Part shown: positions 11,384 through 14,561 of the stretch, piece after piece | Layout of the letters: each line of letters starts with the position of its first letter | Numbering within the stretch: the stretch's first letter is position 1 | Source of the DNA: a virus | IMG/VR virus record: IMGVR_UViG_3300032294_000891 | Coordinates: 1 to 24,865 of that record | Length of the DNA stretch: 24,865 bases | Direction: 5' to 3' (one strand) | Notes under the pieces: generated by a model | Told to the model about the DNA's origin: nothing | The model's database searches: none | What the model saw: only the letters and a program-made list of their open reading frames with translations | Made by a program: the position numbers and the translations under genes

Positions 11384-12868
11384 ATGTTAGAGTTGCGCGA
11401 GCATCAGCTCGAAGTAGTGGAGAAATTAAACGAAGGTTTTGCCAACGGCCACACCAGGCAGTTGTTGTATGCACCAACAGGATTTGGTAAGACCGAGGTA
11501 GCGATGGCTATTATGAAAGCCGTTGCTGACAATTATCAGAAGACCGCTATGGTCTTGGATCGTATCGTCTTGGTCAATCAAACAAGTATGCGTCTTGCCC
11601 GTTATGGTATTGAGCATGGCGTGATGCAATCAGGGCACTGGAGAGAGCGCCCATACGAAAAGATCCAAGTCTGTTCGGCCCAGACCTTAGAAAAGCGTAA
11701 GAATACACCAGACATTGATCTATTGATTATTGACGAGTGCCACGTCCTGCGCCGTTCTACTGTTAACTTCTTAAAAGATAACCCCCAAATCAAGGTCATT
11801 GGATTGACCGCTACGCCATTCACCAAAGGTTTGGGTGATATCTATACCCATATCATTGGCGCATCTCCTACGGGCGATTTGATTGAAAAGGGATGGCTTG
11901 TCCCGCTTAAAGTATTTATCGCTAAAGAGATTGATATGACAGGCGTTAAGAAGATTGCGGGCGAATGGTCTGCTGACCAAGTATCTGAGCGTGGTATGCG
12001 TATCGTTGGGGATGTCGTATCTGAATGGGCTAAGAAAACTTATGAGATCTTTGGTAAGCCCGTTAAGACTATCGTATTCTGCGCCGGCGTAGATCATGGC
12101 AAAGAGTTAGCAAAGCGATTTGAAGATGCAGGATTTAACTTTAAGTCCATCTCCTACAAAGAGGACGACGACTACAAGAGAATGATTATTGAGGATTTCT
12201 CCCGACCTGATACCGATATCAATGGGCTGATTGCTACAGACATTCTGACCCGTGGATTTGATGTTACCGATGTAATGATTGGTGTATCAGCAAGACCCTT
12301 CTCAAAATCATTTTCTTCCCATGTTCAGCAGATGGGGCGCGTAATGCGTCCGCATGAGGGCAAAGAGTATGGGGTATGGCTAGATCACTCTGGCAATTAC
12401 CTTCGATTCAAAGACGATTGGGATCGGGTGTTTGACTATGGCGTTGATTCCCTGGATGGTGGTCTTGAAGAGAAGGCTAAGAAAGAGCCGACTGAGAAAG
12501 AAAAAGTAGAAGCCAAGTGTCCATCTTGTGGTGCGCTATGGATTTGGAAGTCGGATGAGTGCGGTGAATGCGGGCACATAAAGAAGAAGATCGCACAGAT
12601 CCAAGTATTGGATGGTGAACTGCAAGAGTTAGCCGTTGCCAATTCCAAACTAAAGATTGATAACCGACAGTTTTTCCAAGAACTTATGCACTACGCCACA
12701 TCTCGTGGATACAAGGAGGGTTGGGCAGCTCACAAATATAAAGAGAAATTCGGAGTCTTTCCTAAGAACATACCAAAAGAAATGAAGCCTCCGTCGCCAC
12801 AGACATTGAGTTGGATTAAGAGTCGCATGATCGCATACAGTAAATCAAAACAGAGGATAGCAGCATGA
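11384..12868 (+). CDS. Superfamily 2 DNA helicase with C-terminal zinc ribbon
   Basis: 494 residues. Helicase motifs in order: Q-like REHQLEVV at the N-terminus, Walker A APTGFGKT (30-37), DECH (117-120), LTATP (141-145), then in domain 2 TIVFCAG, ATDILTRGFDV and QMGRVMRP (motif VI arginines). This is the UvsW/RecG-like SF2 pattern. After domain 2 comes a four-cysteine ribbon, CPSCGALWIWKSDECGEC, and a helical tail. ATP-driven DNA unwinding or branch remodelling during phage replication is expected. ATGA coupling links it to the next gene. Confidence 0.92.
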   Translation: MLELREHQLEVVEKLNEGFANGHTRQLLYAPTGFGKTEVAMAIMKAVADNYQKTAMVLDRIVLVNQTSMRLARYGIEHGVMQSGHWRERPYEKIQVCSAQTLEKRKNTPDIDLLIIDECHVLRRSTVNFLKDNPQIKVIGLTATPFTKGLGDIYTHIIGASPTGDLIEKGWLVPLKVFIAKEIDMTGVKKIAGEWSADQVSERGMRIVGDVVSEWAKKTYEIFGKPVKTIVFCAGVDHGKELAKRFEDAGFNFKSISYKEDDDYKRMIIEDFSRPDTDINGLIATDILTRGFDVTDVMIGVSARPFSKSFSSHVQQMGRVMRPHEGKEYGVWLDHSGNYLRFKDDWDRVFDYGVDSLDGGLEEKAKKEPTEKEKVEAKCPSCGALWIWKSDECGECGHIKKKIAQIQVLDGELQELAVANSKLKIDNRQFFQELMHYATSRGYKEGWAAHKYKEKFGVFPKNIPKEMKPPSPQTLSWIKSRMIAYSKSKQRIAA

Positions 12869-13038
12869 GAAAATACATAAAGAAAACACATTACGAAATG
12901 ACCTACGATGAGATCGCCAAAGAACTAGGCGTGAGCAGAGAGGCAGTCGCCGAGGTTTGCAAAAGGGCAGAGGCTAAAGTTAAAGAAGCCCTTAAACAAA
13001 AAGGGATAGACCCTGATGATTTATATGGTGAACTATGA
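12865..13038 (+). CDS. Sigma-region-4-like helix-turn-helix mini protein
   Basis: 57 residues. MTYDEIAKELGVSREAVAEV followed by CKRAEAKVKEAL is the sigma region 4 pattern (helix, turn at LGVS, recognition helix) used to contact the -35 element or anti-sigma partners. No sigma region 2 exists, so it cannot be a full sigma factor. It is coupled on both sides by ATGA. It may be a small transcription regulator of the replication block or a host RNA polymerase modulator. Confidence 0.7.
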   Translation: MRKYIKKTHYEMTYDEIAKELGVSREAVAEVCKRAEAKVKEALKQKGIDPDDLYGEL

Positions 13039-14561
13039 ACTACTTATCCGTATGCTCAGGAGTTGAAGCCGCCACAGTAGCGTGGCATTCATTGGGATGG
13101 AAGCCCGTAGGTTTCTCGGAGATTGAGAAGTTTCCATCAGCAGTTTTACAACATCATTACCCTCAAGTAAAAAACTATGGGGATATGACTACATATAAGG
13201 AGTGGGATATAAATGACACAGTTGGACTTTTGGTCGGAGGGACTCCCTGCCAATCATTCTCAGTCGCAGGACTACGCAAAGGACTTGAAGACCCCAGGGG
13301 AAACCTTGCCCTTACCTATGTTGGAATACTTGACCGCTTTAAACCCAAGTGGTTCATTTGGGAAAACGTGCCGGGCGTCCTCAGTTCAAACGGTGGACGG
13401 GACTTTGGTTCCTTCCTTGGGGCGGTGGCAGAATGCGGGTATGGGTTCGCATACAGGGTGCTTGACGCTCAATACTTCGGAGTTCCCCAAAGACGCAGAC
13501 GTGTGTTTGTTGTCGGATGTCTTGGAGATTGGGAATCTGCCGCAAAAGTTTTATTTGAGCCCGACTGCTTGCGCGGGGATACTCCGCCGAGCAGAGAAAA
13601 GGGGAAAGAAACTCCCGGAGTTACTACAAATCGCCTTGTCGCATTCGGTGAATACTCAGACGATGGAGTCGCCAGCACCATAAAGGCACGGGACTGCAAA
13701 GGGCATACAGATCTAATCGTTTATGAGACCCATCCCGCAGACTCAAGAGTCAAAGATATGGGTGATGTATGCCAAACAGTAACCTCAAGATGGGGCACAG
13801 GTGGTGGAAATGTGCCATTGGTTCAGTCTGTTGGGTTTACGCAGTGTGATGCAGCAAGAGATGTTGGTATAAATGTAAGCCCGACCCTCCGCTCTGGCGG
13901 TAATGGCGGGTATCCTAGCCATTCTGTTGCCTATGGGTTTGAACCAGGCATCTCTAAAAGGGAAGGGAATCCAAATAGATTTTCTGAAGAACTTTCCCCA
14001 ACACTAAGGGCGCAGATGGGAGATAACCAAGCCGCAGTCGCTTATTCCATCCGTGAAGATGCAAAAGCAAACAACTTTAGTGCTACCCCGTTACATGTAA
14101 CGCCCGCTCTCCAGGCACTGCGTCCGTCAGTTCAATCTCACCATGCTCAGACTTTTATCGTGGATCGTGCAGCTTTTAATCAGGGAGAGAACGCACAATA
14201 TGAGCCTAGGATTGAAGAGTCCGACACCATGTCTACTTTGGTAGCAAGAGGCCCGCATGCCGTTGCGCAGTCTTTCAATGTTAATGCTAGACCTGATGAG
14301 ATGAAGTTGGAGACGGAGATCTCTGGCACATTAACTTCTAGTCAAAACGCTGGTCTGTTTCAAGACATGGCAGTCCGCCGTCTTACTCCCGTGGAATGCG
14401 AAAGACTTCAAGGGTTTCCTGATAACTACACTCAGATCCCATGGGGTAAAGGTGATACTCCTGATAGCCATCGATACAAGGCTATGGGTAATTCAATGGC
14501 AGTCCCATGCATGCAGTGGATTGGTGATCGTATTCAAAAGGTAGAAAATGGACTTCTTTAG
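13035..14561 (+). CDS. DNA cytosine-5 methyltransferase
   Basis: 508 residues. Motif I SVCSGVEAA (5-13), catalytic Cys 72 in GGTPCQSFSVAG, motif VI ENV (110-112), motif VIII QRRRRVF (152-158), then the long target-recognition region (about 200-445), motif IX RRLTPVECERLQGFPDNY and motif X GNSMAVP (485-491). All key residues are present, so it should be active. The recognition region is unusually long and shows repeating TLxA...VAY-like units. It probably protects phage DNA from host restriction. No partner restriction enzyme is visible. A second gene is nested in another frame. Confidence 0.95.
   Translation: MNYLSVCSGVEAATVAWHSLGWKPVGFSEIEKFPSAVLQHHYPQVKNYGDMTTYKEWDINDTVGLLVGGTPCQSFSVAGLRKGLEDPRGNLALTYVGILDRFKPKWFIWENVPGVLSSNGGRDFGSFLGAVAECGYGFAYRVLDAQYFGVPQRRRRVFVVGCLGDWESAAKVLFEPDCLRGDTPPSREKGKETPGVTTNRLVAFGEYSDDGVASTIKARDCKGHTDLIVYETHPADSRVKDMGDVCQTVTSRWGTGGGNVPLVQSVGFTQCDAARDVGINVSPTLRSGGNGGYPSHSVAYGFEPGISKREGNPNRFSEELSPTLRAQMGDNQAAVAYSIREDAKANNFSATPLHVTPALQALRPSVQSHHAQTFIVDRAAFNQGENAQYEPRIEESDTMSTLVARGPHAVAQSFNVNARPDEMKLETEISGTLTSSQNAGLFQDMAVRRLTPVECERLQGFPDNYTQIPWGKGDTPDSHRYKAMGNSMAVPCMQWIGDRIQKVENGLL
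13213..13683 (+). CDS. Gene nested out of frame within the methyltransferase gene
   Basis: 156 residues in the +1 frame. Own ribosome-binding site AAGGAG ten bases before ATG. The product starts MTQLDFWSEGLPANHSQSQD, has an internal DGTLVPSLGRWQNAGMGS segment and ends with a compact basic helix region: YLSPTACAGILRRAEKRGKK followed by LPELLQIAL. I recognise this C-terminal pattern from phage proteins annotated as hypothetical next to or inside C5 methyltransferase genes. It covers methyltransferase motifs IV-VIII and continues to the start of the recognition region. Function unknown. The conservation could be imposed by the host gene, but the strong start site argues for translation. Confidence 0.6.
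   Translation: MTQLDFWSEGLPANHSQSQDYAKDLKTPGETLPLPMLEYLTALNPSGSFGKTCRASSVQTVDGTLVPSLGRWQNAGMGSHTGCLTLNTSEFPKDADVCLLSDVLEIGNLPQKFYLSPTACAGILRRAEKRGKKLPELLQIALSHSVNTQTMESPAP
13665..14363 (+). repeat. Degenerate repeats in the methyltransferase recognition region
   Basis: About seven imperfect units at residues 211-230, 246-268, 280-302, 319-338, 355-376, 398-415 and 428-443. Each has a core like S-x-T-L-x-A followed after a Gly/Asn-rich turn by a hydrophobic VAY/IVY strand. These are protein-level repeats and not visible as DNA repeats. Confidence 0.5.

Follow-up and report, generated by a model that had tools for sequence, protein, structure and literature searches.

How one stretch of phage DNA can encode a complete C5 cytosine-specific DNA methyltransferase and, in a shifted frame within the same gene, carry an open frame of 156 codons preceded by a ribosome-binding site, and whether that second frame is a gene at all, are the questions raised by the locus described here. 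Overlapping genes are difficult to prove and are usually lineage-restricted. The locus lies in the window, i.e., the whole 24,865-nucleotide stretch of viral DNA that was analysed, and its features are as follows (window positions).

13035..14561, + strand: C5 cytosine-specific DNA methyltransferase, outer frame, 508 amino acids (PF00145, E=1.2e-56; motifs)
13197..13202, + strand: predicted Shine-Dalgarno sequence AAGGAG of the nested gene (kept in 27/34 relatives, with 14% expected from codon usage; binomial ~1e-17)
13213..13215, + strand: predicted start codon ATG of the nested gene (in relatives, ATG at the same site in 20/34, TTG one codon upstream in 14/34)
13213..13683, + strand: predicted nested gene, +1 frame, 156 amino acids, ATG to TAA (ORF; constraint, no stops, kept start; phrog_16143, E=5.6e-8)
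13501..13668, + strand: predicted C-terminal helical domain of the nested protein, residues 97-152 (AlphaFold2; alignment)

The outer frame encodes a complete C5 enzyme, as judged from the PF00145 match and the positions of motifs I (residue 8), IV (PCQSFS, 71), VI (ENV, 109), VIII (QRRRR, 152), IX (449) and X (485). The nested ORF lies wholly within it at an offset of 178, that is, in the +1 frame, and overlaps methyltransferase codons 60-216, a segment with motifs IV to VIII and the first part of the target-recognition region. The AAGGAG sequence, which reads Lys-Glu in the methyltransferase frame, stands ten bases 5' of the nested ATG, with the in-frame stop TAA (13210-13212) immediately upstream of this ATG. 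The sequence-only reading, from which this work started, had given the same arrangement; its coordinates were confirmed, and the two peptides that it quoted, YLSPTACAGILRRAEKRGKK and FEPDCLRGDTPPSREKGKE, are correct. Each nested codon takes in methyltransferase positions 2, 3 and 1', and since a third-position change in the methyltransferase hits a nested second position and thus alters the nested amino acid, the two frames are easily distinguished.

The methyltransferase target-recognition region (13677-14340) contains five spaced TL/TI-x-A/S motifs (TIKARDC at residue 215, TLRSGGN at 284, TLRAQMG at 323, TLVARGP at 401 and TLTSSQN at 432), which suggests that it is built of repeats; in homologues, this region varies greatly in length. 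An ORF of 57 amino acids at 12865-13038 overlaps the methyltransferase start by four bases; its product resembles sigma-70 region 4 (PF04545, E=4e-6) and is a possible small regulator of the methyltransferase operon.

An ORF in a single sequence is weak support when taken alone and is suggestive only. When the window's own codons were shuffled among synonymous positions in 5,000 trials, region 13213-13683 was open in 0.08% of the shuffles, and a +1 run this long arose anywhere in the methyltransferase gene in 1.9% of them. Because such single-sequence statistics are weak on their own, relatives of the gene were compared. They were fetched by the methyltransferase protein alone, the second frame playing no part in the choice, and the removal of near-identical genes left 34 distinct sequences. 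There are no second-frame stops in the 4,768 codons of the overlap, compared with 5-8% of +1-frame codons outside it, and with methyltransferase proteins and codon usage held constant, the null probability of an open frame is ~0.16% per gene. Excess synonymous identity, a simple custom measure that has no phylogenetic correction and is taken over pairs sharing ancestry, is 0.52 in codons 60-205 vs 0.14 upstream and 0.06-0.13 downstream. When this interval was slid round the gene (399 rotations), the maximum began exactly at codon 60, which is the nested ATG, and synonymous constraint on the methyltransferase frame extends from there to near the nested stop. In codons 181-200, variation at methyltransferase positions 1, 2 and 3 is 0.56, 0.38 and 0.18, i.e., the codon periodicity is switched to the second frame. 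The identity of the nested proteins is 0.62 vs 0.36 expected under methyltransferase constraint alone and exceeds the null in 561/561 pairs; over codons 166-200, the nested frame is 66% identical vs 45% for the methyltransferase.

Signals for translation are conserved as well. A start codon is found at the same place in all 34 sequences (ATG in 20, TTG one codon upstream in 14), and AAGGAG is kept in 27, with AAG-GAG expected for only ~14% of Lys-Glu pairs by usage. Purifying selection on both frames, together with a conserved start and ribosome-binding site, is thus shown. The earlier proposal of a conserved overprinted gene is supported by these data: synonymous variation in 13213-13683 is reduced in the relatives, their +1 frame has no stops there, and the start and ribosome-binding site are retained.

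The breadth of the overlap is greater than was first proposed. With tblastn, the nested protein matched 141 phage records, including P1, P7, and Vibrio, Mycobacterium, Streptococcus and Faecalibacterium phages, as well as 532 plasmid records, mostly P1-like, and the same signature occurs in three further methyltransferase clades, namely P1 Dmt, that of pneumococcal phage MM1, and a Dcm-like one (phrog_1008). The P1-like (17 distinct) and MM1-like (54 distinct) sets were chosen by the methyltransferase. In the P1-like set, excess synonymous identity is 0.07-0.16 in codons 1-100, 0.61-0.82 in codons 201-260 and ~0.1 or slightly above past codon 280, and ATG is found at one aligned site in 36/37 genes. 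In the MM1-like set, it is 0.04-0.08 in codons 1-40, 0.20-0.39 in codons 41-160, 0.76 in codons 161-180 and ~0.05 past codon 200; ATG is kept in most genes, with an AAGGAG-type site upstream. In the Dcm-like clade, constraint is mostly 0.43-0.70 over codons 81-320 (0.27 in the most variable stretch), with 0.10-0.13 upstream.

Phage P1 Dmt, a bifunctional C5/N6 methyltransferase, differs from the window enzyme in being fused to a Dam domain but contains the nested frame as a 163-codon open run with an ATG and GGAG, whose C-terminal domain is 66% identical to that of the window over 56 residues; this frame has no annotation in AF234172. The remark in the sequence-only reading that products like this one are on record close to phage methyltransferases proved correct. 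The profile of phrog_16143 is matched by the window protein (E=5.6e-8), by 84/98 relatives and by MM1 orf14 (AAZ82426.1; E=5e-82); phrog_16143 and MM1 orf14 belong to the same family and, just like the window gene, occupy the +1 frame of a C5 methyltransferase gene, although they are labelled as a methyltransferase or its subunit ('C5 methyltransferase beta subunit'). The products of phrog_1008 and phrog_31772 ('DNA methyltransferase', up to 329 amino acids) are also +1-nested in a C5 methyltransferase under synonymous constraint but differ from the window gene in the methyltransferase clade, in the C-terminal motif and in the overlap, which is much longer and extends almost as far as the C-terminus of the methyltransferase. 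The large PHROG family phrog_1008 is thus itself an overprinted +1 frame over most of a Dcm-like gene (L331, 1332-2168 and 1489-2130; L333, L334, L335).

Shifted-frame nesting and dual purifying selection are known from other same-strand overprinted genes of phages and bacteria. The window family differs from these in turning up in four clades of a single enzyme family, with no intact copy found outside that enzyme family. We found no description of the overlap, its breadth or the dual selection in the open-access literature that was searched.

The association with the methyltransferase is close to obligate. Among 492 loci encoding the C-terminal domain, 489 lie within a methyltransferase gene, at the same frame offset. 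The other three were scored as having no methyltransferase hit in the partner frame: L507 is a remnant that lacks its 5' end, L553 is cut at a contig edge, and the PF00145 match of L469 has an internal TAG. The sequence-only reading envisaged a profile search of phages where the two genes are separate, but no intact standalone copy was present in the best 160 profile hits, in 398 Pseudomonadota genomes or in the 492 loci overall. The phrog_1008 family was considered as a free-standing relative and rejected, being itself nested in a methyltransferase. The second frame is lost in essentially no intact methyltransferase of five distinct-sequence sets, and such a loss would need just one change that is silent in the enzyme. 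The one clear case of a broken second frame is L666 (1501-3146), where ~220 extra methyltransferase codons split the PF00145 match; no Pfam domain, be it intein or endonuclease, was found in this insertion. As a control, 27 C5 methyltransferases were collected from bacterial genomes by PF00145; three of them have the domain, and in each of the 24 others the +1 frame is interrupted by stops between motifs IV and VIII, so the C5 family as such does not force an open +1 frame. Since the nested gene was never found intact without the enzyme, and methyltransferase genes that persist have hardly ever lost it, a role linked to the methyltransferase may be inferred.

What the nested protein looks like is suggested by structure prediction. 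AlphaFold2 predicts no fold with confidence for residues 1-92 and, with confidence, a small helical domain at residues ~100-152. In the C-terminal domain as delimited here (residues 97-152), pLDDT is 83-97 over most of the length and helices span 117-130 and 136-152. This domain is the most conserved part of the protein (LSDxLE...KYYLSxxACxGILRRAEKRGKxLPxxLxxAL). Searches of Pfam, NCBIfam, PADLOC and PDB yielded nothing useful as a functional relative, structure searches (Foldseek, VIA) gave no significant match, and the nested proteins of the window, of P1 and of the phrog_1008 type had no match to anti-phage defence models in PADLOC. The MM1 nested protein has only a hit of E=0.001 (16 bits) to a type II methyltransferase model of PADLOC. 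Residues 82-134 of this protein (L006, 1938-2360) align to model positions 239-291, beyond motif VIII, and the model was possibly built in part from frame-mixed sequences.

The C-terminal domain could be a ribbon-helix-helix DNA-binding fold, in which case the nested protein would be an autoregulator of the methyltransferase operon. The order of elements fits, as a strand-like KFYLS segment is followed by a helix, an RGK turn and a second helix; the family profile scores 15.5 against 29 RHH_1 proteins, compared with 10.9 for the best of 40 column shuffles, and one family member matches RHH_1 at E=0.05. However, the hhalign probability is just 4% over 22 columns, neither Foldseek nor VIA gives a match and the window protein has no Pfam match. 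The predicted monomer shows helices only. We consider this identity unlikely, though it fares better than the other alternatives.

Programmed +1 frameshifting, by which the second frame would be reached from the methyltransferase frame to give a short hybrid of a methyltransferase N-terminus and a nested C-terminus, is improbable. A hybrid of this kind, fused at a poly-G tract, is indeed the annotated product of Faecalibacterium phage Toutatis, but the tract is a length-variable homopolymer (9 G vs 14 in phage Lelie), i.e., a site of mutation or phase variation. In many relatives, an in-frame TAA, TAG or TGA directly precedes the nested ATG, the start codon and the Shine-Dalgarno sequence are conserved, and the constraint begins at the ATG. 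Poly-G tracts lie inside the overlap in several methyltransferases of the Faecalibacterium type (Toutatis, L167 1946-1954; Lelie, L671 1141-1154; L667 2126; L668 2123). Their length differs between near-identical flanks, and the frames are joined differently in Toutatis and Lelie, which suggests phase variation within a dual-coding region or, alternatively, sequencing error there.

Still less probable is a split C5 methyltransferase of the M.AquI type with the nested protein as its beta subunit, as the annotation of MM1 orf13 and orf14 as C5 methyltransferase alpha and beta subunits would have it. The beta subunit of AquI carries the target-recognition region and motifs IX-X; here, the outer frame already carries motifs I-X, and the nested protein has neither a PF00145 match nor motif IX or X. 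Membership in the M.AquI type was rejected on these grounds.

The second frame might also never be translated and be open by an accident of codon usage and conserved methyltransferase motifs. A single ORF of this kind would be expected somewhere in the gene in 1.9% of cases, and the motifs of C5 methyltransferases are conserved DNA, so that their +1 translations look alike. Against this, there are the stop-free overlap and the low probability of its being open in each gene, an identity of the second frame that exceeds the null for each pair, constraint borders that coincide with the ORF borders, and the +1 stops in all 24 C5 methyltransferases that lack the C-terminal domain. The start, ribosome-binding site, stop and constraint tests led us to reject this explanation, which we regard as highly improbable. 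Even less credible is an RNA or DNA element (a structure or regulatory site) in place of a second protein: synonymous constraint by itself cannot separate the two, but the constraint is frame-specific, variation shifts to the third positions of the second frame, and the amino acids of the second frame are kept along 140 codons in four clades, with the start and ribosome-binding site kept and no stops.

We conclude that the 13213-13683 frame is very probably a real, selected overprinted gene nested in the methyltransferase gene, and it is best read as an ancient one. One DNA stretch would thus give rise to two proteins in two frames, the outer one being an orphan phage C5 methyltransferase. The inner protein is probably made, and its production likely occurs by internal initiation on the methyltransferase message, at a Shine-Dalgarno sequence and start codon of its own, and not by frameshifting. 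The product would be a small protein whose N-terminal half has no confidently predicted fold and whose C-terminal domain is compact and helical. Its target may be the methyltransferase or else the same DNA; as a binding partner or regulator, it would set the level of methylation activity or of expression, and such a role would ensure that both proteins are inherited and made together. That the nested protein works with the methyltransferase is suggested by linkage and co-retention, and its assignment as a partner or regulator is therefore tentative, with a little less than even chances; we would give much the same weight to the proposal that it is an obligate partner (an activator, inhibitor or specificity factor) of these methyltransferases.

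For the nested gene there are several independent lines of evidence, and it occurs in phages of both Gram-negative and Gram-positive hosts. It represents a conserved protein family that has largely escaped notice, the databases putting both frames together under 'DNA methyltransferase', and two genes may have been hit at once by earlier mutations in phage C5 methyltransferase genes. The presence of the nested gene in the classic model phage P1 makes it testable in E. coli K-12. If the nested protein is an obligate partner of the enzyme, P1, MM1 and many other phage modification enzymes would be two-protein modules encoded in one DNA stretch, and the work on P1 dmt would need a fresh look.
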